A stretch of DNA of 48,839 bases from Betaproteobacteria bacterium (GTDB lineage: Bacteria > Pseudomonadota > Gammaproteobacteria > Burkholderiales > Burkholderiaceae_C), in the NCBI GenBank assembly GCA_025358155.1, contig JANYKR010000206.1, positions 1 to 48,839 on the forward strand, given 5' to 3'. Positions 21,729 through 48,839 of the stretch are shown piece after piece. The translations under genes and the position numbers were made by a program. The stretch's first letter is position 1. Every line of letters starts with the position of its first letter. The notes beneath the pieces were generated by a model. The model was not told the DNA's origin. It worked only from the letters and a program-made list of their open reading frames with translations, and made no database searches.

Positions 21729-21750
21729 CTGTTGCCCTGCAGGGCGACCC

Positions 21751-21756: not shown

Positions 21757-21890
21757 TCCTCGCAGCCGGGCCGGCCAGCGCGGCCAATTCACGGCCAGCT
21801 TCTTGCTCGCAACAGCCTAAGTTGACGGAAGATGTTGCAAGGCCTACCGGGCCAAGCAATCTGCCGAACAACGCACCGGAGACCCCCGCC

Positions 21891-29331: not shown

Positions 29332-29380
29332 CGCGGGCTTTCAGCGGTGGGCGGCGACGGCGCGTCGTCAGTCAAGCTCA

Positions 29381-29440
29381 AACCGGGTCAAACGGGATAA
29401 AACGGGATCAAACGGAATCAAACGGGATCAAACGGGCCCA
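29381..29440 (-). repeat. 10-bp tandem repeat over the udh stop codon
   Basis: Six consecutive decamers close to AACGGGATCA (plus strand) at 29381-29440. On the minus strand each standard unit reads TGATCCCGTT, with TGA in it. Because 10 is one more than a multiple of 3, successive stops fall in different frames. The udh stop (29420-29418) and its last codons (GPFDPV) are made by the array. Confidence 0.9.
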
Positions 29441-32137: not shown

Positions 32138-33508
32138 ATGGCCAAGACGACCACACCTCCCCCCAATGCCGGGGCTGCGCCAGGCCCGGATACCGTCTGT
32201 GACGTGCTGGTGATCGGGGGCGGGCCGGCAGGCGCCACCATCGCCACACTGTTGGCGCGCCAGGGTCGGCAGGTGGTGGTGATGGAGAAGGCCCATCACC
32301 CGCGCTTCCACATCGGTGAATCGCTGCTGCCGGCCAACGTGCCCCTGCTTGAGCAACTGGGGGTGCGCGAACAGGTGCAGGCGATAGGCATGGCCAAGTG
32401 GGGCGTCGAGTTCTGCTCGCCGCAGCACAGCCAGCCCAGCTTTGTCGAGTTCGGTGACGCCTGGGACAAGCGCCAGCCCATGGCCTGGCAGGTGCGCCGT
32501 GATGCGTTCGACGAGATTCTCTTCCGCAATGCCGCCGCCAGCGGTGCGCGCACGCTGGAGGGCTGCCAGGTGCGCCAGGTGCAATTCGACGCCGAGGGCG
32601 CCACCGTGCAGGCCGTGCTTGACGATGGCAGCACCCAGCGTTGGCGCGCCCGTTTCGTCATCGACGCCAGCGGTCGCGACACCTTGCTGGCCACCCAGAA
32701 CCAGTGGAAGCAAAAGAACCGCCAGCACAACAGCGCCGCAATTTACGGTCACTTCCGCGGCGCCGAACGCCTGCCGGGCAAGCGCGAGGGCAACATCAGC
32801 ATCTTCTGGTTCCAGCATGGCTGGTTCTGGTTCATTCCGCTGGCCGATGGCAGCACCAGCGTCGGCGCGGTGTGCTGGCCCTACTACCTCAAGCAGCGCG
32901 ACAAGCCGCTGGCGCAGTTTTTTGCCGACACCCTTGCCATGTCACCCGAACTGTCGCGGCGCTTGCAAGCGGCCAGCCTCATCGACGACCAGGTCTGGGC
33001 CACTGGCAACTACAGCTACAGCGCCGACCGCTGTTCGGGCGCGCGATTCCTGATGCTGGGTGACGCCTATGCCTTCATCGACCCGGTGTTTTCGTCGGGC
33101 GTCTTTCTGGCGATGCAAAGCGCGTTTGACGGCGCCGAAGTGGTGGGCAAGGCGCTGGACCAGCCGGTCGCCTACGCCGCCGCATGCCGCTTGTTCGATC
33201 AACGCATGCGCCACGGCCCGCGCCAGTTTTCTTGGTTCATCCAGCGCATGACCAACCCCATGATGCGAGAGCTGTTCATGCACCCGGCCAACCCGCTGCG
33301 CATGCAGGAGGCCGTGATGTCGCTGCTGGCCGGCGACATCTACGGCAAGACGCCGATCTGGACCTCGCTGGCGCTGTTCAAGGCGGTGTACTACCTCGGT
33401 TCGCTGGCCGCGCTGCCGCGCACCTGGCGCGCATGGCGGCAGCGCCGGCAGCTGATTCGCGATGCGGGTGCGCTCAGCGGCGAAAACGTCATTGCGGGTT
33501 CGTCATGA
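32138..33508 (+). CDS. flavin-dependent halogenase-like oxidoreductase (first of two)
   Basis: A 456-residue FAD enzyme. It shows GGGPAG (27-32), the flavin-halogenase signature WFWFIP (W229-P234, pattern WxWxIP), a lysine in MAKWGVEF (Lys87) aligned with the hypohalous-acid lysine of this family, and GDAYAFIDPVFSSGVFLA near residue 304. It could chlorinate or brominate the aryl head of the pigment. Related family members act as hydroxylases or reductases, so halogenation is inferred. It leads the plus-strand arm and overlaps the chorismatase gene by 4 bases. No strong Shine-Dalgarno is visible. Confidence 0.78.
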   Translation: MAKTTTPPPNAGAAPGPDTVCDVLVIGGGPAGATIATLLARQGRQVVVMEKAHHPRFHIGESLLPANVPLLEQLGVREQVQAIGMAKWGVEFCSPQHSQPSFVEFGDAWDKRQPMAWQVRRDAFDEILFRNAAASGARTLEGCQVRQVQFDAEGATVQAVLDDGSTQRWRARFVIDASGRDTLLATQNQWKQKNRQHNSAAIYGHFRGAERLPGKREGNISIFWFQHGWFWFIPLADGSTSVGAVCWPYYLKQRDKPLAQFFADTLAMSPELSRRLQAASLIDDQVWATGNYSYSADRCSGARFLMLGDAYAFIDPVFSSGVFLAMQSAFDGAEVVGKALDQPVAYAAACRLFDQRMRHGPRQFSWFIQRMTNPMMRELFMHPANPLRMQEAVMSLLAGDIYGKTPIWTSLALFKAVYYLGSLAALPRTWRAWRQRRQLIRDAGALSGENVIAGSS

Positions 33509-34542
33509 GCGGGGTGAGCGTGGCGCAGCCGCAGCGGCCGGGCGCAGGCCCACACGCCTTGCTGGCCGAGCGCCTGTCGCCCGAGGCCTGGTTGCAGCGG
33601 GCCGCCTCATCCCAGCCCGCGTTGGGCGGCTTGGGCTGGGGCTGCTCGGGGCCGGGTCTGGCGCCGCTGCAGGTCCGGGTGCTGTCAGATGCAGGCCCCT
33701 GGGCCGACAGCTGGCACAGCCAGCAGACTGACCTGCGCAGCGGCCGCAGCGGTGCCGTGCACTGGCGGGCCGACGGCGACTGGGCCTTCGGCCAGCTGGA
33801 GCTGCCCACGGCCGACGCCGACCTGGCAGAGACCACACGCAGCGCTTACCGCGATGTGTTCGCGGCCCTGGACGACTGCGGCCGTCCGCAGGTGCTGCGG
33901 CTCTGGAACTACCTGCCCCGCATCAACGCCGACGGCGGTGGACTGGAGCGTTACCGGCAGTTCAACATCGGCCGCCAGCAAGCCTTCATCGACGCCGGGC
34001 GCGATGCGTTCGAAGGGTCGCCTGCGGCCTGCGCGCTGGGCACGACAGGGGCGCAGTCCGGTGGCCTGGCCATCCGCTTCCTGGCCGGCCGCCTGCCGTC
34101 CAGGCCGGTGGAGAACCCGCGCCAGGTGTCGGCCTACCGCTACTCCAGCAGCTTCGGACCGCGCGCGCCCACTTTCTCGCGTGCCGCGCTGGCCGAGGCC
34201 GGGGGCGGGCGGGTGCTGCTGTTCATCTCCGGTACCGCCAGCATCGTCGGTGAACAGTCGCTGCACCCGGGTGACGTCACCCGGCAGACCGAGGAGACAC
34301 TGCGCAACCTGCAGGCCGTGCTCGACGCAGCCATGACGCAGTGCAGCGCGCGCTTCACGTTGGCTGACTTGCAATGCACCGTGTACCTGCGCCATCCGGC
34401 TGACGCTGCGCATGTCCTGGCGCTGCTGGCGCGGGCCATGCCCGGCGCGCTGCCGCCGCGCTGTGTGCAGGCGGACATCTGCCGAGCCGAGCTGCTGGTG
34501 GAGATCGAGGCGCAAGCCTTTGCGCCGGGAGCGCTGGCTTGA
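33505..34542 (+). CDS. chorismatase, XanB2/FkbO/Hyg5-like
   Basis: Converts chorismate to a hydroxybenzoate (3- or 4-hydroxybenzoate in XanB2) plus pyruvate, giving the starter for xanthomonadin-type polyenes. The 345-residue protein has the family segments LRLWNYLPRINADGGGLERY and GRQQAF, the arginine-rich PRQVSAYRYSSSFGPRAP, FISGTASIVGEQS, and the C-terminal RAELLVEIEAQAF with the conserved glutamate. The Rid-like fold is characteristic. It overlaps the halogenase-like gene upstream and the 60-codon ORF downstream, each by 4 bases. The exact isomer formed cannot be read from sequence. Confidence 0.87.
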   Translation: MSGVSVAQPQRPGAGPHALLAERLSPEAWLQRAASSQPALGGLGWGCSGPGLAPLQVRVLSDAGPWADSWHSQQTDLRSGRSGAVHWRADGDWAFGQLELPTADADLAETTRSAYRDVFAALDDCGRPQVLRLWNYLPRINADGGGLERYRQFNIGRQQAFIDAGRDAFEGSPAACALGTTGAQSGGLAIRFLAGRLPSRPVENPRQVSAYRYSSSFGPRAPTFSRAALAEAGGGRVLLFISGTASIVGEQSLHPGDVTRQTEETLRNLQAVLDAAMTQCSARFTLADLQCTVYLRHPADAAHVLALLARAMPGALPPRCVQADICRAELLVEIEAQAFAPGALA

Positions 34543-34721
34543 GCGCCTTGCGCTGGGCGCTGCCGCCCACGCCCCCAGCGGTGCAGTGCCTGGCCTTGCA
34601 GCGCAGGCGGGTGCGCTCGGTGCGCCTGGGCCACGCCACCGAGTTGCAGGCACTGCAGGCACTGAAAACCTGCTTTGCCGGTGGCGCGCGGGGCGTGCGG
34701 CACGCGGTGGCCCTGCCATGA
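34539..34721 (+). CDS. 60-residue ORF coupled on both sides
   Basis: The ATG (34539) overlaps the chorismatase stop as ATGA, and its own stop (34719-34721) overlaps the next ATG (34718) as ATGA. The product is basic (MSALRWALPPTPPAV..., RRRVRSVRLG) with no membrane helix and no family that I recognise. The two overlaps match the spacing style of this operon, which argues for a real gene. Its short length and GC-rich context argue for caution. Confidence 0.45.
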   Translation: MSALRWALPPTPPAVQCLALQRRRVRSVRLGHATELQALQALKTCFAGGARGVRHAVALP

Positions 34722-35494
34722 CGCTGAGCTCAAGCACCCATCTGGTGCTGATCCCTAGCTACAACACCGGTGCGCAGGTCTATGCCACCGTGCGCGCTGC
34801 GCGTGCGCTGTGGCAGCCGGTGTGGGTGGTGGTGGACGGCAGCAACGACGGCACGGCCGAGGGCTTGCAGGCCATGGCCGCAGCCGATCCCGGCCTGCGG
34901 GTGTGGGTGCGGAGCCAGAACGCCGGCAAGGGTGCGGCCGTGCTGCACGGCCTGCGGCAGGCTGCCGCCGCCGGCTACACCCATGCGCTGACGATGGACA
35001 GCGACGGCCAGCACCCGGCCAGGCTCATCCCCGACTTCATGCAGGCCTCGATGGCGAGGCGCGAGGCCATGATCCTGGGTCGGCCGATTTTTGACGCCAG
35101 CGCGCCGCTGCTGCGGGTGCGCGGCCGCCGTGTCTCGAACTGGTGGACCCACCTGGAGACCCTGGGTGCGGGCGTGGCCGATTCGCTCTACGGCTTTCGT
35201 GTTTATCCCGTGGGTGCACTGGTCGCCGTGATGCAGCGTCAGCCCTGGATGCGGCGCTTCGACTTCGACACCGAGGCCGTGGTCCGGCTGGCCTGGCGCG
35301 GCGTGAAGCCGATCAACATCGACGCGCCCGTGAAGTACCTGAGCGCCGACGAGGGCGGCGTCTCGCATTTTCGTTATGGCCGCGACAACCTGCTGCTGAG
35401 CTGGATGCACCTGCGCTTGATGCTCGAGTTCGGCTTGCGCTTGCCGGTGCTGCTGTGGCGCAAGGCCCGCAGGCTGGCGCCGTTCCAGCCCTAA
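34718..35494 (+). CDS. family 2 glycosyltransferase
   Basis: A 258-residue GT-A fold enzyme: LVLIPSYNTGAQVYATV at the start, VVVDGSNDGTAEGL (nucleotide binding), TMDSDGQHP (metal-binding DxD, about residue 92), and SLYGFRVYPVGAL in the acceptor part. It resembles dolichol-phosphate-mannose-synthase-type enzymes and the GT2 genes in aryl-polyene/xanthomonadin clusters, where the polyene is joined to a glycolipid. It is last in the plus-strand arm and its stop codon is in the first unit of a 7-base array. Confidence 0.87.
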   Translation: MTLSSSTHLVLIPSYNTGAQVYATVRAARALWQPVWVVVDGSNDGTAEGLQAMAAADPGLRVWVRSQNAGKGAAVLHGLRQAAAAGYTHALTMDSDGQHPARLIPDFMQASMARREAMILGRPIFDASAPLLRVRGRRVSNWWTHLETLGAGVADSLYGFRVYPVGALVAVMQRQPWMRRFDFDTEAVVRLAWRGVKPINIDAPVKYLSADEGGVSHFRYGRDNLLLSWMHLRLMLEFGLRLPVLLWRKARRLAPFQP

Positions 35495-35549
35495 GCCCTC
35501 AGCCCTAAGCCCTAAGCCCTCAGCCCTCAGCCCTCAGCCCTCAGCCCTC
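35487..35549. repeat. 7-bp tandem repeat between convergent genes, with stops on both strands
   Basis: Nine heptamers AGCCCTA or AGCCCTC. Plus strand: each unit of the A type is followed by A, giving TAA. Minus strand: units read TAGGGCT or GAGGGCT, giving TAG or TGA. The glycosyltransferase stop TAA (35492-35494) and the halogenase stop TGA (35536-35534) are both in the array. The 7-base period rotates stops through all frames. Confidence 0.92.
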
Positions 35550-37231
35550 AGCGCCTCTGGCGCCATCAGCGCGTCAGCAGCCGGGAAAAGCAGCCCCTCA
35601 GCGGTCGGCTGCAGCGCGGTGGCCGGCAACAAGGCGCGCAGCGCACTGCCATCCAACCCCGGGTGTTGCTGCAAACCCCTTTGCAGCAGCTCGCCCGCCA
35701 GTCGCTGCAAGCGGCGTGATGCCGCACGGATGCGCTCGCGGTAGGCCGCGTCGTCCAGACTGGGGTCGTGCAGGCTGCGGTTGAGTTCAACGAACCAGGG
35801 CACCGAGGCCTGGTCCAGCATCACCGGCAAGTTGCGGCGCTGGCTCACCGCACCCCAGTTGCGCAAGAAGCGCTGCACCTCGATGTTGAGCTGCTGGCAC
35901 AGCGCAAGCTCGCCGCGCAGGTGGCCCATCGAGGCCAGGTCGGCCAGCCGCTGCTGGCAGAACATCTGCGCCAGCACGCTCCAGTAGTAGGTGTAGTCCC
36001 AGATCACCTTGCAGGGCAGGACCTCGGGGTCACCGAACAGGCCGTACTGGTCAACGTAGAGCGCCAGGGTGCTGTCGTAGAACGAGCGAAAGACCTGCTC
36101 GTAGACCTGCACATGGGCGCCCAGGCGCTGGCCTGCGAGATCGCGTGCAACCAGCTCGGTGATGTAGGTGTTGCCGATGGCAATGAAGTCGCTGCCCGGT
36201 GAGTAGAAAGGGTCGAGAAATCGCCCGGCATCACCCGCCAGCGCCCAGCGGTGTTCGGAAAACACCTGCTTGCAATCGTGGCTGAAGCGCTTGAAGAAAT
36301 GGAAATCCTGCAGCTTGTCGCGCTTTGCGTCCAGGTCATCGAACAGCGCCGGCTGGAACTCTTGCAGCCAATCCATCGCCTTCTCAAAACTGTTCATGCG
36401 CTCCAGCGGGTGGTAGCGCGGGTCGGCAACGATGCCCACCGAGTGTGAACCCGAAGCCAGCGGAATCAGCCACACCCAATAGCCCGAGCCGACCAGGTGG
36501 TTGGTGGACAGCCAGCGCGTCGGCGTCTCGCAGCGCTGGCGCCAAGCGGCGGCGGCCGGGTCATCGGCCTCGTCGACAGCCAGCGGCCAGTCATCGATGC
36601 GGATGTGCTCGCTGATCCGGAACCACACCGCGTGCACGGCATGCGCGTTGCCCTGCGCCAGGCCCAGTTGGCGTTTGATCAGGCTGGCGCGACCGCAGGC
36701 GTCCACCACCCACTTGGCGGCGGTCTGCTGCGGCGCTGCGCCTTGCTGCTGCCAGTGCACGAGGTGCGGCTTTCCATGTTCGTGCAGGTCGAGCTTGTGG
36801 ATGACCGCGTTGTCAACAAAGCGGATGCCACGCCGCTGGCACTCCTGGCCCAGAAAGTTCTCGAAAATGCCGCGATCAAGCTGGTAACTGGTGACCGGCA
36901 GCGGCCGGCTGGCGCCCAACTCGGTGACGCGGTGCAGGTCGCGCCGGCCTTCGCTGAAGAAAAAGCGAAAGCCGAACTTGCGCAGTTGCTGGCCCTGCAG
37001 GTGCTCCTTCAGGCCGAGCGTCTGCTCGAAGTAGTGAGCCCCGATCTCCACGCTGCTCTCGCCCACCTTGTGGCAGGCCAGCGGTACCGGGTGCGGGCGG
37101 CGCTCCAGGACCAGCACGTCGATCTCGGGCAAGCGCCTGCGCAGTTGCAGCGCCAGGGTCATGCCCGCCAGGCCGCCGCCCATGATGAGGACGTCGGGTT
37201 GCGGGTTTGAAGTGTGTGGCATGCGGGTCAT
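35534..37231 (-). CDS. flavin-dependent halogenase-like enzyme (second of two)
   Basis: A 565-residue FAD enzyme with GGGLAG (18-23), KVGESSVEIGAHYFEQTLGL, a lysine in RKFGFRFFF (Lys85), the halogenase signature WVWLIP (W252-P257) and GDAGRFLDPFYSPGSDF for FAD binding. The C-terminal 200 residues are extra compared with the first enzyme and could be the substrate-recognition part. It ends the minus-strand polyene arm, 104 bases after the ketoreductase. Its last codons (AEG) derive from the heptamer array. Halogenation (bromination in xanthomonadins) is likely but hydroxylation is possible. Confidence 0.82.
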   Translation of the reverse strand: MTRMPHTSNPQPDVLIMGGGLAGMTLALQLRRRLPEIDVLVLERRPHPVPLACHKVGESSVEIGAHYFEQTLGLKEHLQGQQLRKFGFRFFFSEGRRDLHRVTELGASRPLPVTSYQLDRGIFENFLGQECQRRGIRFVDNAVIHKLDLHEHGKPHLVHWQQQGAAPQQTAAKWVVDACGRASLIKRQLGLAQGNAHAVHAVWFRISEHIRIDDWPLAVDEADDPAAAAWRQRCETPTRWLSTNHLVGSGYWVWLIPLASGSHSVGIVADPRYHPLERMNSFEKAMDWLQEFQPALFDDLDAKRDKLQDFHFFKRFSHDCKQVFSEHRWALAGDAGRFLDPFYSPGSDFIAIGNTYITELVARDLAGQRLGAHVQVYEQVFRSFYDSTLALYVDQYGLFGDPEVLPCKVIWDYTYYWSVLAQMFCQQRLADLASMGHLRGELALCQQLNIEVQRFLRNWGAVSQRRNLPVMLDQASVPWFVELNRSLHDPSLDDAAYRERIRAASRRLQRLAGELLQRGLQQHPGLDGSALRALLPATALQPTAEGLLFPAADALMAPEALRAEG

Positions 37232-37335
37232 TCCATCAGATCACAGGCTGGCCCCGCGCTGCCGGCCCCAACACTGACGGCCCCCACACTGCGGGCGGTG
37301 GTGCAGTATCAGCGGCCGCCTGGCTCGGTAGCCTG

Positions 37336-38079
37336 TCAATAAAGCCCGCCGTTGACCGAGATCACCTGCCCGGTGATGTAGGCCGCCTCGGGGCTGGCCA
37401 GAAAGCCGGCTAGCGCCGCCACTTCTTCGGGCCTGCCGGCGCGCTTGGCGGGCACCATGCGGTCGATCATGGCCTGGTCGAAGCTGCCATCGGCCATCGG
37501 TGTGGCGATGATGCCCGGCGCTATCGCATTGACGGTCACGCCTCGGCTGGCCAGCTCCAGGCTCAAGGCCTTGGTGGCGCTGTTGAGCGCGCCCTTGGCG
37601 GCGGCGTAGTTCACCTGGCCGCGGTTGCCGGCCAGCGCCGCCACCGACGAGACGTTGATGACCCGGCCCCAGCGGGTGCGCAGCATCGGCAAGATCAGCG
37701 GCTGGGTGACGCGGAAGAAGCCATTGAGCGAGACATCAATGACACGGTGCCACTGGGCAGGGCGCATGCCGGGGAAGACGGCGTCGTCGTGGATGCCGGC
37801 GTTGTTGACGATGATCTGAACCGGCCCGCCGGACAGCATCTTGGCCACAGCGGCGGCGGTGGCCGCGTCGCTGGTCAGGTCGAAGACCAGCACCTCGGTC
37901 TGGCTGCCGGCGGCCTGCAGTTCGGCGGCCAAGGCCTGCACCGCCTCGGCATTGCTGTTGGCATGCAGCAGCAGGGTCGCGCCGTCAGCCGCCAGCCGGC
38001 GTGCAATCGCCGAGCCCAGGGCGCCGCTGGCGCCCGTGACCAGGGCGCGTTTGCCGGCCAGCGGTTTTTGTGCGGTCAT
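37336..38079 (-). CDS. 3-oxoacyl-ACP reductase (FabG-like, aryl-polyene ketoreductase)
   Basis: NADPH-dependent short-chain reductase, 247 residues, corresponding to ApeQ in aryl-polyene systems. It has TGASGALGSAIA (16-27), NNAGIHDD, the catalytic Ser in NVSSVAALAGNRG and YAAAKGAL (Tyr/Lys), and ends GQVISVNGGLY. It reduces the beta-keto group after each condensation. The start overlaps the dehydratase stop by 4 bases. Confidence 0.92.
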   Translation of the reverse strand: MTAQKPLAGKRALVTGASGALGSAIARRLAADGATLLLHANSNAEAVQALAAELQAAGSQTEVLVFDLTSDAATAAAVAKMLSGGPVQIIVNNAGIHDDAVFPGMRPAQWHRVIDVSLNGFFRVTQPLILPMLRTRWGRVINVSSVAALAGNRGQVNYAAAKGALNSATKALSLELASRGVTVNAIAPGIIATPMADGSFDQAMIDRMVPAKRAGRPEEVAALAGFLASPEAAYITGQVISVNGGLY

Positions 38080-38537
38080 TTCGGCGCGAGGGGGGTGTTG
38101 AGCACAACGGTCGCACGGCCGTCCACCAGCAGGCGGCCGCCTTCGTCGTGCAGCTCAAAGTGGTAGAGCGCCGTCGCATCCGCGCCGGCCAGGCGCTTGG
38201 CCGTTACCAGCAGCAGGCCGGGCACATCGTCGAGGCGGCTGACATGCAGATTCACGTTGCGCGCAGTGGCCAGAAAGCCGGCCGATGGCTGGCTGCCAGG
38301 TGCGGCCATCAGGCCACCGTGCAAGGCCATGGCCTGCGAGGCGTACTCGATCGCCACCGGCGACAACAGCCCGCCGGGCGAGCGCAGCGGGTGGGCAGCG
38401 TCGCGGTGGCTGCTGGCGCGGCAGCGCACGGTGTCGGCGGTCCAGCCCAGCAGGCCGTCGAGCAGGCACATGCTGCCGCTGTGCGGAATGCGCGTTGCGA
38501 TGCCGTCGCGGTCAAGGGTCTGCGTTTGCAGGGTCAT
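38076..38537 (-). CDS. hotdog-fold 3-hydroxyacyl-ACP dehydratase, ApeP-like
   Basis: A 153-residue FabZ-related protein. It has RIPHSGSMCLLDGLLGW, IEYASQAMALHGGL and the central hotdog helix. ApeP partners with ApeI in known aryl-polyene systems; here the ApeI-like domain is fused to the ligase. It dehydrates the growing chain to keep the polyene conjugated. It overlaps the ketoreductase gene by 4 bases and starts 7 bases after the chain-length-factor stop. Confidence 0.88.
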   Translation of the reverse strand: MTLQTQTLDRDGIATRIPHSGSMCLLDGLLGWTADTVRCRASSHRDAAHPLRSPGGLLSPVAIEYASQAMALHGGLMAAPGSQPSAGFLATARNVNLHVSRLDDVPGLLLVTAKRLAGADATALYHFELHDEGGRLLVDGRATVVLNTPLAPK

Positions 38538-38544
38538 GCCGGCC

Positions 38545-39321
38545 TCATGCCAGTGTCAGTTGCAGGCTCAGCCCGGGCAGGCCTTCGAGCATCAGCCGGG
38601 CCGGGCCGCCGCGGGCGATGGCCTGCAGCAAGGGCAGCGAACGGGCGGCCGGGATGCCCAGGCGCAGCGCATCCAGGCCGGCATGGCCGCAAGCGGTGGA
38701 CGCGGCTTCATCTACCAGTGCCAGCGTGAGTTGCGAGCCGGGCGCCAGCAGCAGGGCCACGCCAAAGGCATCGCTGATCGGACGCAAGGCCGCCAGCGGT
38801 GCCGGGTAGGGCACGTCGGCTGCCACCAGCAGCACCGGCGCGTCGCGGCTGGCGACCTGGGCCAGGGCTTCGAGCAGGCCGGCGCCGAAGCTGGCGTCGT
38901 AGGCCGCCAGGCTGGTCGAAGGCGCCATGCTGTGCGCGGCGATGTGCCAATAACCGCCGGGTGCGTTGTGGACCGAGTTGGTGAAGCGGGTCGGCGACAC
39001 CAGGCGGTCGGGCGCGGCCAGCGCCTCGCACAGCGCGTGGCAGTTGGCCGGCTCGCCGGTTGATGAGGTGAAGACCGTGGCGAGTGCGGCCGCGTCCAGC
39101 CCGACGGAAGCCAGCGCCTGGTCGGCGACGCCGATGCTGGTCTTGACCACGGCACCCGCGCGGCGGCGCTCGGTGGCGAGCAGGCGCTGTGGCGGTGGCA
39201 CTGCGGTGGCGTTGGACTTCCACAGCGCAGGCTCGCGCAGCAGCGCGATGGCGCTGGGCCAATCGGCAAGGCCCGGGCCGAGCAAGCCAACGCCCAGGAT
39301 GTCGGCGCTGAGTGGGCTCAT
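38545..39321 (-). CDS. ketosynthase-like chain-length factor, ApeC-like
   Basis: A 258-residue partial thiolase-fold protein. It shows TVFTSSTGEPANCHALCEAL and SPTRFTNSVHNAPGGYWHIA, but the position of the active-site cysteine is SLAAYDASFGAGLLEAL, without Cys, so it should be catalytically inactive. In aryl-polyene systems such proteins pair with the ketosynthase and set chain length. The ATG overlaps the ketosynthase stop by 4 bases. Confidence 0.87.
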   Translation of the reverse strand: MSPLSADILGVGLLGPGLADWPSAIALLREPALWKSNATAVPPPQRLLATERRRAGAVVKTSIGVADQALASVGLDAAALATVFTSSTGEPANCHALCEALAAPDRLVSPTRFTNSVHNAPGGYWHIAAHSMAPSTSLAAYDASFGAGLLEALAQVASRDAPVLLVAADVPYPAPLAALRPISDAFGVALLLAPGSQLTLALVDEAASTACGHAGLDALRLGIPAARSLPLLQAIARGGPARLMLEGLPGLSLQLTLA

Positions 39322-41284: not shown

Positions 41285-42144
41285 ACTGCGCAGCGGGGTG
41301 GCAGGGCAGCGCGCAGCGTGGTGGCTTGCAGGCCTGCGGCCCGGGCGCGGGCCAGCAGGGGCGCAAGCACGTCCAGCAGCACCGGGCGGCCGGCGGCATT
41401 GCGCCGGGCGTTGCCGTCGTGCAGCAGCAAGATGTCTCCGGCGGCCAGTGCGCGCCCATCGGCGCCTGCCAGCCGGCGCAGCACGCGGGCAGGTTCGCCG
41501 TCTCGGGTGTCAAAGCCGCGGCGCGTCCAGCTCACCAGGTGCAGTCCCAGGCGGTGCAGCACCGGGTCGAGCAGCGGGTTGCGCAGGCCCGCCGGGGCGC
41601 GAAAGCAGTGCGGACGCTGGCCGCTCAGATCGGCCAGCAGGTCTTGCGCGGCGCTGATCTCCCGGGCCAGCGCACGCGGGCCGCGCAGTGAAAAGTCGTG
41701 CCGGTGGTGCTGGCTGTGGTTCTGCACATCGTGGCCACGCCGGACGATCTCGCGCAGCAGCGCCGGGTGACGGGCGGCACGCAGCGCGATCACAAAAAAA
41801 GTAGCGCGTGCGCCGTGGGCGTCCAGCAGGTCGAGCACGGCGGGCGTGACCTCGGGGTCGGGGCCGTCTTCCAGGGTCAGCGCCCATTGACCCCGGGCGC
41901 TGGCCGCTGCCGGCAAGCGGGTGACGTTGGGGCCGAGCAGGCCACTGCGCGGCCACAGCCCGGCGGCGGTGAGCCCCAGGTGGTTCAGCACCACACCGGC
42001 CAGGGCCCAGGGTGCGGCGCCGGGGATCAGCAGCGCGGCTGTGCCGGCGGCCACATGCAGGCCCAGGCTGGCACTCAGCGCAGGCGGCCAGGGCCACGGG
42101 TCGGGCGGTCGCGCAGAGGCGGGCTGGGCGGGGGGAGAAGCCAT
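41281..42144 (-). CDS. polysaccharide deacetylase homologue with an altered active-site motif
   Basis: A 287-residue protein with an N-terminal hydrophobic region (about 20-70, two helices) and a NodB domain. Seen motifs: TLEDGPDP (usual TFDDGP, so the first Asp is Glu), HSQHH (usual HxxxH), FRAPAGLRNP (RxPxG), and LLLHDG. The metal-binding residues look present, but the catalytic-base Asp is replaced by Glu. Role in the pigment pathway is unknown; it may act on a glycolipid anchor. It is between the MMPL exporter and the methyltransferase. Confidence 0.82.
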   Translation of the reverse strand: MASPPAQPASARPPDPWPWPPALSASLGLHVAAGTAALLIPGAAPWALAGVVLNHLGLTAAGLWPRSGLLGPNVTRLPAAASARGQWALTLEDGPDPEVTPAVLDLLDAHGARATFFVIALRAARHPALLREIVRRGHDVQNHSQHHRHDFSLRGPRALAREISAAQDLLADLSGQRPHCFRAPAGLRNPLLDPVLHRLGLHLVSWTRRGFDTRDGEPARVLRRLAGADGRALAAGDILLLHDGNARRNAAGRPVLLDVLAPLLARARAAGLQATTLRAALPPRCAV

Positions 42145-42197
42145 GGTCGGCAGGAACAGCGGTGCGGGCTACCGGGGCTTTCGGCGGGGCGATTCTG

Positions 42198-44612
42198 TCA
42201 CACCGAGGTGCTAGGTTGGGCTTGGGTCGCGGCCGGCGCTGGCGGCGCCAGCGGTGCAAAAGCGGCCGCCAGCACCAGCGCCAGCAGCGCGCCCGGGCCC
42301 ACCACGCAGCCGATGGCCGACAAGGCCTGGATGTCGGACGCGGCGATGAGGCCGAACCCCAGCACCGTGGTGACATTGGCCAGCAACAGCGACGCCAGCG
42401 TGTCGTCGCTGGCCTGGCCGCCGTGCTGCAACAGGTCGAAGAACAGCGCGTAGTTCGAGCCCACCGCCACCACCAGCAGCATGCCCACCAGGTGCAGGAT
42501 GCCCATCGGCACCTGCAGCAGCGCCAGGCCGCCCATCGTCAGCAGCACCGCCAACAGCAGGGGCTGGCAGACGGCCAGCACCCGACGCGTGTTGCGCAGC
42601 GCCACCGCCACCATCAGCAGCACGCCCAGGCCGCCGAGCGCGGCCTGGGTGCGCGCCTCGCCCAGGTAGCGCCGGTACATGCGGCCGAGCTGACCGCTGA
42701 TGTCGACCACCTGCACCTGCGGCAGGCCCTGCAGCGCGGCGCCCACGCGTGCCAGGTCCAGCGTTTCGCCCACCGGCTGCAGCGGCAGCAGCGCGGTGAA
42801 GCTGCCGTCGGGGCGGCGCAGCATCAGCGCGTCGAGCAGCGGCGCGATCGCGGTCTTGCGGGCGGTCTCGAACGTGATCAACGGCAGCTCGCGGGCCTGC
42901 GCCACGGCCTGCTCGAAGGGCCCCAGGCGTTCGGCCTTCAGCGGCCCGCCGGCGGTGGCCTGGGCCAGCGCGGCGTGCAGCGCGGCCGGCTCGGGCAGCG
43001 CGGCCTGGCGGCGCTGCTGGGTCTGCAGGCTGGGCAGAAACCGCGTGACCGTGTCGAACCCGGCGATGACACGCTGATTGACCAGCAACTCCAGGCGCTG
43101 CGCCGCAGCCTCGGCCTGCTGCAGGGCTTGCTCGGTGGTGGCAGCTTGCACCACCACGAAGGCGCCACCGTCGCCGCCGGCGGTGATGTCGGCGCGCAGG
43201 CTGGCGTCCAGCGCCAGGGCTTGCTGGGACACCGGGCTCAGCGACATCAGCTTGGCGTCCCACAGGCTGTCGCGCTGCCAGACCAGCAATGCCGAGGCCA
43301 GGCCCAGCACCAACCAGAGCGGGCGTGTGCGCGGCAGCAAGCCGATGGCGCTCCGTGCGGCGCGGCCCATCTGGCGGCGCAGGCCCATGCCGCGCGCACC
43401 GTCGGGCATCAGCACCGGCAGCAGGTAGCGGGTGGCCAGCACGGCGCCGATCAGCCCGGCCAGCGAAAACACGCCCAGCTGCTGCAGCCCAGGGAAACCT
43501 GAAAAAAGCAGGGCCGCAAAGCCGCACAGCGAGGTCAGCAGCCCCAGGCGCACCGTGGGCCAGTTGCTGCCCAGCCACCGGCGCCAGCCTGTGCCGTCTT
43601 GGCCGCGCGCCTGTATGAGGTAGTAGATGGCGTAGTCCACCGCTTCGCCGATGAGCGTGGCGCCAAAGCCCAGCGTCACGCCGTGCACGTTGCCAAAGCT
43701 CAGGCTCACGGCCACGATGCCGGTGATGATGCCGGTTACCACCGGCAGCAGGGCCACGCCCAGGGCCAGCGGCGAGGCAAAGGCCAGCAGCAGCAGCGCG
43801 CTCATCAGCACGGTGCCCATCTGGGCCAGCCACTTCACCTCGGCCTCGATCTGGGTACGGCTGTCGACCGAAAACACCGGTGACCCGCTGACCAGCAGGC
43901 GCAGCGGCGGATTCTTGGCCTCGGCCTGCACGGTCTGGAAGGCACTGCGCAGCGTGGCGAGGGCCGCCTGTTGCGCGTCGAGGTCGGCGCCGTCGGCGCG
44001 TATGCCGGCCAGCAGCAGGGCTCGCGGCGCATCGCGCGCCACCCAGACGCCTTCATCGGTGCGGGTTGCACGCACCGGGATCATGCTTTCGGCGATGCCC
44101 TGCACCTCGCCAGTGGGGTCTTGCGTCAGCAGACCTTTTAGCGCGACGCCAGCGGGCGTGCCGAGCAGCGAGAGGGTGTCGGCGATGCCCTCACGCAGGC
44201 CGTCGGCGGTGAAACGGGCGGGCGTGACGGCCGGGCTCAGCAGGTAGCGGTGCTCGAAGATCCACTTGCCGACGTCGGCCCAGGCGTCGTTGTCGCCGTT
44301 GCTGACCTGGTCGAAGCGCCCGCTGGCACGCAAGGCCGTGGCCAGCTTGCGGGAGGCGGCCGCGCGCTGCACCGGGTCGCCGCCTTCGATGCCGATGAAC
44401 ACCGTGCGCGCCGGTGCGCCGCCCTTGATCTGGTCGATCAGCACCTGCTGCTGCGCATCGGCCGTGGCGGGCAAAAAAGCCGACAGGTCGGCGCTGAACC
44501 GGGTGCGGGTGATCTGCAGCACGGCCACCAACATCAGCGCCAGCCACACCGCCACCACGGCCGTGCGGTAGCGCGGGCCCAGCGGGCCCGGCGGGACGTA
44601 CGCCTGCATCAT
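42198..44612 (-). CDS. MMPL/RND-type exporter of the aryl-polyene cluster
   Basis: An 804-residue inner-membrane exporter with two repeats, each a periplasmic domain followed by a block of membrane helices, about 11-12 in total. N-terminus TAVVAVWLALMLVAVLQI and periplasmic LSAFLPATADAQQQ are typical of ApeM-like proteins; the first helix block has FGNVHGVTLGFGATLIGEAVDYAIYY. It probably passes the polyene-lipid across the inner membrane. It overlaps the LolA-like gene by 4 bases, consistent with exporter-carrier cooperation. Confidence 0.9.
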   Translation of the reverse strand: MMQAYVPPGPLGPRYRTAVVAVWLALMLVAVLQITRTRFSADLSAFLPATADAQQQVLIDQIKGGAPARTVFIGIEGGDPVQRAAASRKLATALRASGRFDQVSNGDNDAWADVGKWIFEHRYLLSPAVTPARFTADGLREGIADTLSLLGTPAGVALKGLLTQDPTGEVQGIAESMIPVRATRTDEGVWVARDAPRALLLAGIRADGADLDAQQAALATLRSAFQTVQAEAKNPPLRLLVSGSPVFSVDSRTQIEAEVKWLAQMGTVLMSALLLLAFASPLALGVALLPVVTGIITGIVAVSLSFGNVHGVTLGFGATLIGEAVDYAIYYLIQARGQDGTGWRRWLGSNWPTVRLGLLTSLCGFAALLFSGFPGLQQLGVFSLAGLIGAVLATRYLLPVLMPDGARGMGLRRQMGRAARSAIGLLPRTRPLWLVLGLASALLVWQRDSLWDAKLMSLSPVSQQALALDASLRADITAGGDGGAFVVVQAATTEQALQQAEAAAQRLELLVNQRVIAGFDTVTRFLPSLQTQQRRQAALPEPAALHAALAQATAGGPLKAERLGPFEQAVAQARELPLITFETARKTAIAPLLDALMLRRPDGSFTALLPLQPVGETLDLARVGAALQGLPQVQVVDISGQLGRMYRRYLGEARTQAALGGLGVLLMVAVALRNTRRVLAVCQPLLLAVLLTMGGLALLQVPMGILHLVGMLLVVAVGSNYALFFDLLQHGGQASDDTLASLLLANVTTVLGFGLIAASDIQALSAIGCVVGPGALLALVLAAAFAPLAPPAPAATQAQPSTSV

Positions 44613-45259
44613 CGCGGTGCAGCGCTGGCAGCCAGCGGCTCGACCAGCATCAGCGAGCGGTCACCGCCCGCCAGGCGCAGCTCGATGCTGCGCATGTCGG
44701 CGCCGGTGCCGGCGATCTCGAGCTGCTGCACGCTGCGCGCGAGGCGGGCGTCGATGGGGGTGAGCAGCAGCACCCAGCGCTGGCCGTTGCCGCTGACCTG
44801 GGCTTTGAAGTGGCGCCGCAAGGCCTGGGCGTCACCGGTGAGCGTGCCGCGCATCGCATCGGCCAGCGCGGAGAGTTCGGGGATCGAGTCGAGCGCCATC
44901 TGGCGCGTGCGCTTGCCTCGCTTGAGCAGCACCTCATTGCCCTGAACCTCCATGCTCTCGGGGCGGGGCTCTTCGGTGAAGCGCGAAAAACGGTCAGGCG
45001 CCTCGAAGCTCAGGCGGCCACTGGAGCGCAGCGGGTAGTCGAAGCTGCTGACGGTGCGTTCCTCGGTGAAGCGTGCTTCGCCGCTCTTGCGTTGCGCCAA
45101 CTGGGCCATCAGCGCTGCCAGGTCGAAGCTCGCCGCAGCCGCCTGGGCCCAGGCGCCGCTGCCCGACAACCACAGCGCAGCGGCCAGCACGCTGACGAGC
45201 CAGCCACGGCGCCGGCGCGGCGCAGCCTCACACGGCGTCGTTTTCAGGCCAGTAGTCAT
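44609..45259 (-). CDS. LolA-like outer-membrane carrier of the aryl-polyene cluster
   Basis: A 216-residue periplasmic protein: Arg-rich n-region and hydrophobic leader (RRRRGWLVSVLAAALWLSGS) ending about AWAQA, then LolA-type EARFTEERTVSSFDYPLRSSG and RLSFEAPDRF. It corresponds to ApeG. It differs from the housekeeping lolA at 4580 and probably carries the polyene lipid to the outer membrane. The ATG at 45259 overlaps the end of the acyltransferase gene by 32 bases; upstream sequence in frame is antisense-like and rejected. Confidence 0.87.
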   Translation of the reverse strand: MTTGLKTTPCEAAPRRRRGWLVSVLAAALWLSGSGAWAQAAAASFDLAALMAQLAQRKSGEARFTEERTVSSFDYPLRSSGRLSFEAPDRFSRFTEEPRPESMEVQGNEVLLKRGKRTRQMALDSIPELSALADAMRGTLTGDAQALRRHFKAQVSGNGQRWVLLLTPIDARLARSVQQLEIAGTGADMRSIELRLAGGDRSLMLVEPLAASAAPR

Positions 45260-46202
45260 AGAAGTTGAACCAGTTGTAGGGGGCCTCACGGCACAGCGCC
45301 TCCAGGCGGTGCACGTAGTCGGCCACGGTGGCGGCCACCAGCTGTTCGCGCTCGGCCGCGCCCGCCGGCGGCTCACGAAAGTCGGCCAGGGTCTCGAAGC
45401 GCAGGTCGTAGCGGTTACCGCCCCGGTACAGCGCCACCATGAAGATCACCTGCCGGCGCAGCATCAGCGCCAGTCGCACCGGGCCGTCGGTAAAGCGTGT
45501 GCGCTGGCCCAGAAAGTCGAGCGACAGGCTGCCGCCGTGTACCGCATCACTGGCCACAAAACGGTCGCCCATCAGCCCGGTGAGACCGCCTCGGTCGAGA
45601 AAATCGCGGATCGCCAGGGCCGAGCCGCGCTGGCCGATGGGGATGATGCTGACCTCGAAGTCGGGTGCCAGTGCCTGCAGCACGGTGTGGATCATGCGCG
45701 CGTTGTCGGGGTACATCACCATCGCGACCGGCAGGCCGGGGTGGCTCATGCCCACGGCGTGCAGCGCCTCGAAGCTGCCGATGTGCGCGCCCAGCAGAAA
45801 CACGCCGTGCGCCTCGGCCACGCTGCGGTCCATCAGCCCGTTGCCGCTGATCTGCAGCTCGAACAAGTCCAGCCGGCCGGCGGCGAACCAGAGGCGGTCC
45901 AGTGCCACGGACGCAAAGCTGTGCAGATGGCGGTAGAGATCGGCCCAAGCGGCCGGCCGGCCCAAGGCACGCTCCAGGTAACGGCGCGAGGCGCGGCGGG
46001 CGGGCGGCGCAAACAACAAGAAGTACAGCGTGATCGGGTGCAGCACCAGGCGCGCCACCGGACGGCCCAGGTGGGTGGCGATCCAGGCGATGGTGCGCAG
46101 GGCCAGCAGGTTGCTGCGCTCGGGCGTGGCGGTCCAATCGCGGGCCCGGCCGGTGTCGGCGCCATCGTCGCCGCTGCCAGGGGTGCAGGCCTGGGTGCTC
46201 AT
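45228..46202 (-). CDS. LpxL-like lysophospholipid/lipid A acyltransferase
   Basis: A 324-residue membrane-associated acyltransferase. The HxxxxE catalytic motif is in LLGAHIGSFEALHAVG, with the later MVMYPDNARMI and LTGLMGDRFV elements of the LpxL/HtrB family. In aryl-polyene clusters such enzymes help to attach acyl groups, possibly the polyene itself, to the lipid anchor. The ATG at 46202 makes ATGA with the ligase stop. The first 30 residues are non-conserved. Confidence 0.88.
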   Translation of the reverse strand: MSTQACTPGSGDDGADTGRARDWTATPERSNLLALRTIAWIATHLGRPVARLVLHPITLYFLLFAPPARRASRRYLERALGRPAAWADLYRHLHSFASVALDRLWFAAGRLDLFELQISGNGLMDRSVAEAHGVFLLGAHIGSFEALHAVGMSHPGLPVAMVMYPDNARMIHTVLQALAPDFEVSIIPIGQRGSALAIRDFLDRGGLTGLMGDRFVASDAVHGGSLSLDFLGQRTRFTDGPVRLALMLRRQVIFMVALYRGGNRYDLRFETLADFREPPAGAAEREQLVAATVADYVHRLEALCREAPYNWFNFYDYWPENDAV

Positions 46203-47875
46203 GGGCCGACTCCGGGGGCCCACAGGCCGGTGGCAACGGCCTGGCCCTGGCGCAGTACCTCGAAAGCCACGCCGTTGCGCTGGGCCTGCAAGTGCACCTG
46301 CAGGTCGCTGCCCGGCAACACCGCGCTGAGAAACTTCACCTGGGCGATTTGCGGTGCCGGGCCGAGGCGGGCCTGCAACTCGGGCCGGGCCTGCAGCGCC
46401 CGCATCACCAGGGTCAACAAGGCCGCGCCTGGCAGCACCGGCTGGCCGGGGAAGTGACCGGCAAAGGCCGGGTGGTCGGCCGGCACATGGAAATGCCCGC
46501 CTTCGGCCAAGGCGTCTCGCGCAAAACGCGCCAGCGCCTGGGCGCTGAGCTTGCCGGTGGCCTCGCGGGGCAGCGCGGGTACGTGCAGCACCCGGCGTGG
46601 CACAAAGGCAGCTTCCAGCGGTTCGCGCAGCGCAGCCATGATCTGGCGGGCGCTGAGCGTGGGCGCCACCACAAAGGCCACCGGCCGCGTGATGCCGTCG
46701 GCTTGTTCCGGGGGCATCCAGAAGGCGCCATCGTCCACGCCCGGGATGCGGTTGAGTTGAAAGTCCAGGTGGGCCAACGAACTGCGCTTGCCCGCGACAT
46801 GGATCAGATCGTTGGCCCGGCCCAGCAGCCGGAAGTGATGCTCATCGTGCAGCTCCAGCACGTCGGCCAGCGGCGTGGCCGTCTGCACGTGGCCGCCCTG
46901 CACCAGAAAGCGCTCGGTGCCGTCGTCCGCCAGGTCGCGCCAGACGCGCAGCGCGCCCAGCGTGTGCCAGGTCTCGCCAGCGGTGGTGCGGCGGCTGGCG
47001 ACCTGGCCGGCTTCGGTGCAGCCGTAAATCTCGACCAGTCGGCCCCGGCACACGTCCTCGGCCTGCTGCGCGAGTTGCGGCGACAAGGGCGCCGTGGCCG
47101 ACAGCAGCAACTCCACCTGCGGCAGCGCCAGGCCCGCCCGCATCAGCGTTTTCAGGTGGAAGGGCGTGGTCACCAGGGCACGCGGCGCCGGCACCTCGGC
47201 CAGTGCGGCGGCGATGTCGGCCGGGAAAAAGGGCCGGCCGGCGTCAAAGCTGGCGCCACCCAGCAGGGCCAGCAGCACCGTCGATTCCAGGCCATAGCTG
47301 TGCTGCGCCGGCACCGTGGCCAGCACGTTGAGGCCTTGCAGCGAGGGCCGATCGCACAACGCTGCCAGGCGCTCGGCCTCGGCGGCAATGTTGAGGACCA
47401 GCGCGCCCCAGCTTTTGCCATGGGGCTGGGGGGCGCCGGTGCTGCCGCTGGTGAGCAGGCGCACCGCCTCCAGCGAGGCAGGGATCAGCGGCACCTCGGT
47501 CGCCGCAACGCCGTTGAGTGGGACATCGACAAACACACGCTGCAGACCTCCGACGTCCAGCGCCGCGTCGTCCAACAGTGCGTAGGGCTGCTCGCCCGGC
47601 CCCGCGCCGGTGCTGTGCAGCGCACGCAGGGTGTCGGGCAGCGCATTGGGCGGCATCAAACTGGTCTGGCCGCGCAGCAAGGCTGCGGCAAGCCCCAGCG
47701 CAAACCGGTAGCGGTCCTGGCACAGGTTGATCGGCTGGCCCCGGGCCGGCAGCGCAAGCGCGAGCTGCCGGGCTTGACCCAGGAACTGCGCAGCACTGAC
47801 AGGCACGCCCCGGCGCCAGGCCAGCGGTGCGGCCAGGTCGCGCTCGGCCAGCAGGGGCAGGGCGGTGGCCGTCAT
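46199..47875 (-). CDS. acyl/aryl-AMP ligase fused to an ApeI-like hotdog dehydratase
   Basis: A 558-residue two-domain enzyme. The N-terminal ANL ligase (about 1-440) has RLLTSGSTGAPQPHGK (phosphate loop), EIYGCTEAGQ, GRANDLI, and the catalytic Lys in PREATGKLSAQAL. The C-terminal domain (about 460-558) is FabZ-like: FAGHFPGQPVLPGAALL carries the active His. It would load the hydroxybenzoate onto ACP and dehydrate the chain. Ligase and dehydratase are separate genes (ApeH, ApeI) in E. coli. It overlaps the COG4648-like gene by 4 bases. Confidence 0.9.
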   Translation of the reverse strand: MTATALPLLAERDLAAPLAWRRGVPVSAAQFLGQARQLALALPARGQPINLCQDRYRFALGLAAALLRGQTSLMPPNALPDTLRALHSTGAGPGEQPYALLDDAALDVGGLQRVFVDVPLNGVAATEVPLIPASLEAVRLLTSGSTGAPQPHGKSWGALVLNIAAEAERLAALCDRPSLQGLNVLATVPAQHSYGLESTVLLALLGGASFDAGRPFFPADIAAALAEVPAPRALVTTPFHLKTLMRAGLALPQVELLLSATAPLSPQLAQQAEDVCRGRLVEIYGCTEAGQVASRRTTAGETWHTLGALRVWRDLADDGTERFLVQGGHVQTATPLADVLELHDEHHFRLLGRANDLIHVAGKRSSLAHLDFQLNRIPGVDDGAFWMPPEQADGITRPVAFVVAPTLSARQIMAALREPLEAAFVPRRVLHVPALPREATGKLSAQALARFARDALAEGGHFHVPADHPAFAGHFPGQPVLPGAALLTLVMRALQARPELQARLGPAPQIAQVKFLSAVLPGSDLQVHLQAQRNGVAFEVLRQGQAVATGLWAPGVGP

Positions 47876-48504
47876 GGCTGCGTGGACGTGCCGGTGGCGC
47901 GCCAGGCCTGCAGCACCCGGGCCAGGCTGACCCGTTCGAACTCTGGATGGCGGTGGTAGCGCCAGAAGTGCTCGCCGACAAAAAACACCAGCACCGACAA
48001 AGGCGTGAACACACCGCCGAACAAGGACCACCAGGCCCAGGGTGTCAGCAGGTAAAGCGCCAACGAGACCCCGATCATCCCGATGAAGTAGGCCATCCAC
48101 GCCGCTGTGAGCTGGCGGGTGTAGACCCGCATCGCCGGCGTGAAATGGCTGTGGATGCGCTGCGCCATCAGCGTGATCAGCGCGGTACTGCCCGGCCGCA
48201 GCGTGATGCCAAAGCCCCAGGCCAATGCGCCATGGATCGCGCCGTGCTGCAGCACGTAGAAAAGGTTCACCCCGGCTCCGCCGCGCCACACCATGCCCAC
48301 CAGCAGGGCCGCGAGGCCGGTGGCCGCCAGCAACGTGGGCAGGTGTCGGCGGGTGAAGGCGCTGGCAAACAGCAGCACCAGCAGCGGGCCGAACAGCACC
48401 GCCACCGACCAGGGCCGGTCAGGCCACCAGGCCATCAGGGCATACGACAGCAGCGCATAGGCCATCAGGGCCGCAGCAGCCGCCACCACGCGCCAGTTGG
48501 GCAT
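47872..48504 (-). CDS. COG4648-like integral membrane protein
   Basis: A 210-residue protein with about five to six hydrophobic helices (VVAAAAALMAYALLSYALM, WSVAVLFGPLLVLLFAS, LPTLLAATGLAALLVGM). It fits the membrane protein of unknown role that lies between the ACP and ligase genes in many aryl-polyene clusters. The start MPNWRVVAA at 48504 is 4 bases after the ACP stop. The biochemical role is unknown; transport or assembly help is a guess. Confidence 0.8.
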   Translation of the reverse strand: MPNWRVVAAAAALMAYALLSYALMAWWPDRPWSVAVLFGPLLVLLFASAFTRRHLPTLLAATGLAALLVGMVWRGGAGVNLFYVLQHGAIHGALAWGFGITLRPGSTALITLMAQRIHSHFTPAMRVYTRQLTAAWMAYFIGMIGVSLALYLLTPWAWWSLFGGVFTPLSVLVFFVGEHFWRYHRHPEFERVSLARVLQAWRATGTSTQP

Positions 48505-48508
48505 GGGG

Positions 48509-48811
48509 CTATTTTTTGCGGTGCTGGGCCACGTGCCTGGCCATGCTGCGCAGTGACTGGAAGATCTGGTGGTTGTTCTCATCGTCTGAGCGCAGCTCGA
48601 ATCCGTAGCGGTGCGACACCTCGAGCGCAACTTCCAGGATGTCGATCGAGTCCAGCCCCAAGCCCTCGCCGAACAGCGGTGCCTCAGGGTCGATCTCGGC
48701 CGCTGGCGTGTCGAGATTCAGCGCTTGCACAAACAACTCGGCCAACTCACGTTCCAACGCGGGCAAGTCGACGGTTCCAGCAGGGACGGGGGCGGACGGC
48801 GACTCGGACAC
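48509..48811 (-). CDS. acyl carrier protein of the aryl-polyene cluster
   Basis: A 100-residue ACP. The phosphopantetheine-attachment Ser is in FGEGLGLDSIDILEVALEV (about residue 55). The N-terminal 15 residues are a non-conserved tail. I take the GTG start (48811), with GAGGAA (48822-48817) 5 bases upstream. It is the most 5' gene of the minus arm seen here; the operon probably continues past the window, since other aryl-polyene clusters carry two ACPs. Confidence 0.88.
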   Translation of the reverse strand: MSESPSAPVPAGTVDLPALERELAELFVQALNLDTPAAEIDPEAPLFGEGLGLDSIDILEVALEVSHRYGFELRSDDENNHQIFQSLRSMARHVAQHRKK

Positions 48812-48839
48812 AGCACTTCCTCTGGCATACCGCAGCCTG

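Follow-up and report, generated by a model that had tools for sequence, protein, structure and literature searches.

Gene Content of the Cluster

We analyzed one whole contig (JANYKR010000206.1, here C84; 48,839 bases; "the window" below) from the draft genome of a Burkholderiales bacterium (G000; 5.1 Mb in 330 contigs). From position 32138 to the contig end, the window holds a gene cluster of the xanthomonadin/arcuflavin type, most likely for an aryl polyene (APE), a yellow pigment of the membrane. We assigned the gene families by searches with Pfam and NCBIfam models, by matches in the PDB, and by position in relatives. A first-pass annotation made from the sequence alone had proposed a xanthomonadin-type cluster in two convergent arms, and the gene families it claimed were found in place. 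Our own call of an APE cluster is made because of these family matches, the agreement with the arc genes of Azoarcus as given in PMC3949708 (whose names we use for positions below), and the conserved gene order in relatives.

The plus arm opens with FAD1 (32138–33508), a flavin-dependent halogenase-like protein in the ArcA position (Trp_halogenase, 102 bits), whose best PDB matches are halogenases and which carries WFWFIP and FIDPVFSSG. It is followed by a chorismatase of the FkbO/Hyg5 type in the XanB2/ArcB position (33505–34542; PF21168, 130 bits on the longer open reading frame [ORF] 33184–34542). Next is a small ORF of 60 amino acids with a TTG start (34539–34721), at the spot where relatives have an acyltransferase and often also MipA. 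The arm closes with a GT2 glycosyltransferase in the ArcE position (34718–35494; PF00535, 57 bits on ORF 34412–35494), which has 79–87% identity to those of three named relatives.

The minus arm, taken in order from the contig end, begins with an acyl carrier protein (ACP; 48509–48839, possible GTG start at 48811; PF00550, 36.6 bits; NF006617, 127 bits, above its cut-off of 70; motif GLDSID). The contig end at 48839 falls inside this ORF and cuts the cluster there. Then come a 210 amino acid protein in the ArcU/ApeG position (47872–48504), which has homologues at the equal place in relatives and no match among the Pfam or NCBIfam models; an AMP-dependent ligase fused to a FabA-like dehydratase in a single ORF (ArcT plus ArcS; 46199–47890, start uncertain; PF00501, 53 bits, and PF07977, 23.7 bits); an LpxL-like acyltransferase in the ArcR position (45228–46223; PF03279, 24 bits), kept in relatives; a LolA-like periplasmic carrier (44609–45376, start probably further in; PF19574, 85.8 bits); and an MMPL/RND exporter in the ArcP/ApeM position (42198–44612; PF03176, 33 bits). 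Further along are a NodB-like polysaccharide deacetylase in the ArcN position (41281–42144; PF01522, 95.8 bits) and an S-adenosylmethionine-dependent methyltransferase in the ArcM position (40505–41284; PF13649, 41 bits). The ketosynthase (KS; 39318–40604, start probably near 40508; NF006618, 511 bits, above its cut-off of 407) has the motifs TACSS, NLHGTGT, and GHTLGA. It is paired with a KS of the chain-length-factor (CLF) kind (38545–39591, start probably near 39320; PF13723, 98.9 bits; PDB matches 7f28_A and 6qsp_B). A putative stand-alone dehydratase in the ArcI/ApeP position (38076–38537) is assigned by its position and its conservation beside the ketoreductase in relatives, as it matched none of the Pfam or NCBIfam models. 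The FabG-like ketoreductase (KR; 37336–38079; NF004200, 338 bits, above its cut-off of 273) and FAD2, a second halogenase-like flavoprotein (35534–37231; Trp_halogenase, 50 bits; WVWLIP and FLDPFYSPG), complete the arm.

Three details of the first-pass gene list needed correction: the deacetylase and the 210 amino acid ORF had been overlooked, and the cutting of the ACP ORF by the contig end had not been given. It had also described nearly all genes as overlapping by 4 bases or lying a few bases apart. Overlaps of 4 bases are present at several joints (33505/33508, 38076/38079, 41281/41284, and 44609/44612), but the gaps between deacetylase and MMPL (53 bases), FAD2 and KR (104 bases), and chorismatase and GT2 (175 bases) are wider.

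How well does this content fit an APE pathway? The KS is of the APE type by its model match and has its paired CLF, and in the PDB search each of the two matched both chains of 7f28 and of 6qsp first; we take these entries to be APE complexes. A XanB2-like chorismatase and an aryl ligase are predicted by Pfam matches above the cut-offs. ACP, KR, and the fused FabA-like dehydratase are identified by models, and the second dehydratase by position and conservation. Genes for export and lipid attachment (MMPL, LolA, acyltransferases, and glycosyltransferase) are present as well, the PlsC-type acyltransferase only in trans on another contig, C213. Both flavoproteins retain WxWxIP and FxDPxxSxG, which we take to be halogenase-type motifs; halogenation by them is putative.

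The genes do not look like a fatty-acid or resorcinol cluster, the outcome that would have spoken against the first-pass proposal. The family model matches of the window parts include the FabG-like KR but no enoyl reductase besides it, and the three KAS III-type matches of the whole genome (a type III polyketide synthase among them; no darA/darB model was searched) all lie outside C84. One could still suppose a different product, a flexirubin-type or resorcinol-linked polyene, made jointly with a type III polyketide synthase operon that lies unlinked on contig C215. The row of genes there (L084, 8771–13708) encodes a KS, an ACP, a flavoprotein, a methyltransferase-like protein (below the Pfam cut-off), and a chalcone-synthase/DpgA-like protein, and the Azoarcus polyene is described as joined to a dialkylresorcinol (PMC3949708). 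However, the row is physically unlinked to the cluster, and its proteins resemble type III polyketide synthases and not the DarA/DarB scheme set out in PMC3949708. We regard a joint product as very unlikely. As an observation in its own right, the C215 row possibly represents a resorcinol-type pathway separate from the window.

Gene Order in Relatives

We compared the cluster with two reference sets. The first consists of 80 named loci kept from 196 relatives scanned, many of them cut by contig ends. For the second, a search of 299 family genomes with the exporter gave a match in 90; 23 of these matched only at 26–33% identity, and by that level of similarity need not have APE exporters, and we fetched 20 loci from the remaining 67.

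The layout is ordinary. The order from ACP to MMPL is exactly that of the window in 63 of the 80 named loci, and the order from MMPL to KR (methyltransferase optional) in 46. Most of the 20 family loci also follow it, the rearranged ones being L042, L053, L054, and L059. GT2 lies on the strand opposite to MMPL in every named locus with a GT2 match (39/39) and in 15 of the 16 family loci (out of 20) with GT2, the exception being the inverted L059. Ligase and dehydratase are fused in 19 of the 70 named loci showing both halves and in 7 of 19 such family loci; L042 has neither half. Judged by gene content, split clusters occur among relatives also: L051 and L053 have neither GT2 nor the acyltransferase within their 20 kb, and L156, L157, L174, L179, L183, and L214 have no recognized second arm in the 2–6 kb after KR.

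The first-pass annotation had seen a distinct variant in the tailoring genes on both strands, the fused ligase-dehydratase, and the duplicate halogenase-like genes. Given these counts, we reject the convergent arms and the fusion as novelties, the former being the rule and the latter common. The duplication fares better, since FAD2 marks a subset (23 of the 80 named loci), most members of which, unlike the window, have a second KS-CLF pair (KS2-CLF2). The cluster is probably a distinct variant through its missing and displaced parts, and not for the reasons first advanced.

The Acyltransferase and MipA Genes

A PlsC-type acyltransferase gene stands beside GT2 in all 33 named loci that extend far enough to reveal it (in six others the locus ends too soon to tell), and MipA is also found there in many. 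In the window there is no acyltransferase between chorismatase and GT2, only 175 bases with the 60 amino acid ORF. The first-pass annotation had listed a small ORF at this spot but had overlooked the missing gene and its copy in trans. The gene is in place in strain AAP65 (G195), in Rubrivivax rivuli (96% identical to the G195 copy), in an Inhella metagenome-assembled genome (MAG; 87%), and in the congeneric G314 (89%).

A search of the whole G000 genome with the acyltransferase gave no match on C84. The sole close match (69%) lies on C213 at 21650–22408, the others being partial and at 29–34%; the C213 protein is 71% identical to the G195 copy. Directly before it is a MipA gene (PF06629; 20791–21645). 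This pair is flanked by a class I tRNA synthetase of the Glu/Gln type (probably glnS) on one side and a LytTR response regulator with a histidine kinase on the other. The synthetase and regulator genes are 732, 516, and 1091 bases apart in G314, G313, and G300, with no match to the pair between them; in G011 the distance is 4.5 kb, and the pair is likewise unmatched. C213 is 58 kb long; by calculation, at least about 20 kb separate the pair from the closest cluster end, and about 35 kb separate it from the site next to GT2. We considered the LytTR regulator as a part of the pathway, a proposal weakened by its matches in 21 of 21 genus members, with or without the cluster.

Within the genus, the exporter is found in 6 of 21 genomes, and the same six have the acyltransferase (E 1e-20). 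By these searches the co-occurrence mainly indicates that the acyltransferase is not found in pathway-free genomes. In the acyltransferase tree the C213 copy groups with those of G285, G071, and G255 (92/89, not a starred fork), most forks being open, and in the MipA tree, which has no MipA of G195, its neighbor groups with those of G074, G060, and G172 (96/97).

Could the small ORF be a relic of the lost gene? At the protein level, 39 of 1000 shuffles reach the score of its alignment to the acyltransferase. At the DNA level, 4 of 500 shuffles do so against G195 and 53 of 500 against G314; in a repeat run with 400 shuffles each, the counts are 27 (L223), 49 (L224), 178 (L225), 6 (G195), and 37 (G314). 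Only the G195 value is low and the aligned part varies among relatives, and we do not accept the ORF as a relic. On the gene content compared above, it is most likely that the in-place acyltransferase was lost and that its role has been taken over by the diverged C213 copy. Among the matches listed in a search of titles and abstracts of the open-licence literature, none concerned an unlinked acyltransferase in such clusters.

FAD2 and a Second KS-CLF Pair

FAD2 directly follows a CLF-type gene in 17 of the 23 named loci that have it; the other six are five Pseudorhodoferax loci and one MAG. In G195 and G314 the genes for CLF2, KS2, an esterase-like protein (PF00756), and X1, for which no Pfam model matched, lie between FAD2 and KR. 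The window has no second KS-CLF pair at this place, where FAD2 and KR are only 104 bases apart. A search of the whole genome with CLF2 matched only the window's own CLF, and KS2, compared with four KS proteins obtained by searching the whole genome, is most similar to the window KS (46%). Many relatives are likewise without KS2-CLF2. We infer from these neighborhoods that FAD2 is a remnant of a KS2-CLF2-FAD2 unit.

Across Burkholderiales APE clusters (L143–L146 and others of the 80), the KS2-CLF2-FAD2 cassette, often with the esterase-like gene, occurs at differing places: in some genomes it comes after KR, in others it lies between MMPL and NodB, and in others again upstream on the opposite strand. 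No title or abstract among the open-licence literature matches listed dealt with this cassette. Separately, a further KS gene lies just outside the chorismatase arm in G195 (L060, 6995–8698), G314 (L135, 4537–6008), and G267 (L062, 8778–10361), and is adjoined by an ACP gene in G314; the window has no such KS. A search limited to the 19 kb surrounding the chorismatase arm of G314 gave no close match to FAD1 (L135, upstream of 7089).

History and Composition

In a tree of RpoB (21 of 22 genomes, G074 being unmatched), G000 groups with G011 and G296 of its own genus (96/98). In the trees of MMPL and of KS (17 rows), it groups with G195 of another genus (100/100 in both). The exporter search gave no match in G011, which RpoB places nearest to G000. 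The trees did not include G314, a member of the same genus that has the same cluster type at 77%. From these trees, transfer of the cluster between genera is likely.

The tetranucleotide composition of the cluster part of C84 correlates at 0.92–0.94 with G000's own stretches (0.94 with C213), at 0.85 with the G195 cluster, and at 0.88 with the G296 cluster. It is thus closer to its own genome, and we consider it unlikely that C84 is a mis-binned contaminant. The same value bears on the idea that the cluster is complete and ordinary and that the missing acyltransferase and KS2-CLF2 are assembly collapses. The assembly is in 330 contigs and the cluster is cut at a contig end, as such an idea would have it. 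But both gaps are internal to one contig, whose cluster part correlates at 0.94 with C213, the acyltransferase on C213 is an independent, diverged copy, and the searches with CLF2 (only the window CLF) and KS2 (at most 46% to the four fetched KS proteins) brought up no stray second pair. We therefore think a collapse unlikely.

Conservation of Residues

Next to gene content, we asked how far the proteins themselves are conserved. In a leave-one-out comparison of 16 proteins, the window keeps 909 of the 916 columns that are invariant in all others. The seven departures are L99M in ACP; D92E and P261A in the deacetylase; Q169K in the methyltransferase; A61T in KR; and L71R and V130I in GT2. There are none in KS, CLF, dehydratase, ligase, exporter, chorismatase, or either flavoprotein. 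D92E falls in a conserved motif. The motif T-x-DDG is present in 87 of 87 relative loci (some of them the same genome under two ids) and reads TLEDG in the window, and the D92 column does not vary in the rest of the leave-one-out set (70 loci with the deacetylase). The first Asp of DDG is presumably the catalytic base in this deacetylase family.

One reading of these data is that the cluster is decaying and the mature pigment lipid is no longer made. The loss of the acyltransferase and KS2-CLF2 and the D92E change would fit, and so would the count of departures over 13 comparable proteins, five in the window against 0, 1, 0, and 1 in the four nearest named clusters, which resemble each other and have reduced counts for that reason. 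Some relaxation of constraint in the window is possible on these counts. On the other hand, all ORFs are open, the departures are just seven in 916 columns and spare the core proteins listed above, and many relatives also do without KS2-CLF2. A decayed pathway is, in our estimate, unlikely.

A Proposed Pathway

From the observed gene content, order, and conservation of the cluster, and the observed location of the MipA-acyltransferase pair on C213, we think it probable that this Burkholderiales bacterium has a working xanthomonadin/arcuflavin-type APE pathway whose genes lie in two or more places of the genome. By analogy with homologues, which we use for every enzymatic step and for the product, the pathway may run as follows. 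The chorismatase would form 3-hydroxybenzoate, which the ligase would load onto ACP. KS-CLF, KR, and the dehydratases would extend the ACP-bound 3-hydroxybenzoate into a conjugated polyene, and the methyltransferase and one or both flavoproteins would alter its aryl end by methylation and possibly halogenation. The LpxL-like acyltransferase, GT2, and the PlsC-type acyltransferase would anchor the polyene on a membrane lipid, and MMPL, LolA, and MipA would move it outward.

Several points weigh against a working, split pathway. The chorismatase and the ligase both fall short of curated NCBIfam cut-offs (for the chorismatase, TIGR04444 gives 199.7 bits under a cut-off of 325), though their Pfam models, PF21168 and PF00501, are above the Pfam cut-offs. 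The window exceeds its four nearest clusters in departures from invariant columns, and one of these is in the deacetylase motif, so that one step may be impaired. The co-occurrence of exporter and acyltransferase is partly trivial, as the other five genomes hold both within about 12 kb. The forks of the acyltransferase tree are mostly open, and the acyltransferase and MipA trees conflict on the sister group of the C213 pair. The small ORF is not demonstrable as an acyltransferase remnant, and, with the draft genome in 330 contigs, C84 may contain a local assembly error.

It is tempting to go one step further and view the pathway as a mosaic: a cluster of the AAP65/Rubrivivax type would have arrived, its own acyltransferase would have been replaced by the unlinked, diverged MipA-acyltransferase pair, and its KS2-CLF2-FAD2 cassette would have been reduced to FAD2. 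We hold this history tentatively, as somewhat short of an even chance. If it is true, the acyltransferase would be an exchangeable module that fixes the lipid anchor independently of the polyene. A genome with an apparent swap to a diverged, unlinked copy offers a natural test of whether the anchor is determined by this enzyme. In the relatives, the repeated occurrence of the KS2-CLF2-FAD2 cassette raises the question of the role of a second polyene KS pair.

Repeats and Signals

The two arms meet at an array of the heptamer CAGCCCT (35486–35557; 10.1 copies), which the first-pass annotation had pointed out correctly and which contains the stop codons of both GT2 and FAD2. In 137 kb of G000, Tandem Repeats Finder located comparable short arrays between other genes as well, and these were not confined to convergent pairs. 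Arrays of 7–12 base units lie at gene ends or between genes at 4522–4569, 5203–5234, 29378–29436, and 35486–35557 in the window and near 9615, 43227, 49252, and 56210 on C213. The arm junctions of G195 and G314 have no heptamer array. We therefore reject the idea that the array serves as a special signal where the arms meet. At 28209–28319, two adjacent repeat runs (GCATCT × 9.3 and GCGGTC × 9.5) lie inside a minus-strand ORF of 594 amino acids and encode Ala-Thr and Ala-Asp repeats near its N-terminus. A promoter scan found 0 promoter-like sites against 0.8 expected, and a terminator scan found 11 terminator-like sites against 7.3 (standard deviation 2.7) expected.

Comparison with Known Systems

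The cluster itself is not new; it belongs to a known kind. Table 1 of PMC3949708 gives the arc genes of Azoarcus as arcA (halogenase), arcB (chorismatase), arcC (MipA), arcD (acyltransferase), arcE (glycosyl transferase), and arcK, arcJ, arcI, and arcH (KS, KS-N, dehydratase, and reductase); the set goes on with arcM (methyltransferase), arcN (deacetylase), arcP (exporter), arcQ (lolA), arcR (acyltransferase), arcS (dehydratase), arcT (ligase), arcU, and arcV (ACP) (PMC3949708). According to the same source, insertion mutants of arcK and arcT in Azoarcus BH72 are colorless, ArcB forms 3-hydroxybenzoic acid in vitro (4-hydroxybenzoic acid arises in the assay even without enzyme), ArcT activates 3-hydroxybenzoic acid, and Azoarcus, with its halogenase homologue, yields a non-brominated pigment.

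Measured against that description, the window has the same gene set in the same order as far as it reaches. The genes form one cluster in the window and two loci in Azoarcus BH72; the window is without arcO between deacetylase and exporter, has the ligase and dehydratase fused, and has the extra FAD2, while the counterparts of arcC and arcD are on another contig. For arcF, arcG, arcL, arcO, arcW, and arcX as named in PMC3949708, no counterpart was identified in the window, nor were dialkylresorcinol genes identified here, none having been searched for by model.

The xanthomonadin clusters of Xanthomonas and the xanthomonadin-like cluster of Lysobacter enzymogenes, as presented in PMC3691225, share with the window a KS and CLF-like protein, a XanB2 homologue, ACP, KR, two dehydratases, and a LolA-like protein. 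The Xanthomonas clusters have a halogenase like the window, the Lysobacter cluster has none, and the organization differs from that of the window. The E. coli ape cluster (PMC8253772) shares KS, CLF, KR, dehydratase, ligase, ACP, LolA, an RND exporter, acyltransferases, and a methyltransferase. Its gene list (Table 1 there) has no chorismatase, halogenase, or deacetylase, and, unlike the window, has the thioesterase ApeK, a second ACP, ApeR, ApeA, and ApeN.

Among relatives, we compared the APE clusters of AAP65 (L143), Rubrivivax rivuli (L144), the Inhella MAG (L145), and the Burkholderiales MAG Jr-25may17-74 (L146, G314). These carry X1-HYD-KS2-CLF2 between KR and FAD2 and the acyltransferase beside GT2, neither of which the window has. 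They share with it the gene order, the fused ligase-dehydratase, FAD2, and an MMPL protein 74–77% identical to that of the window.

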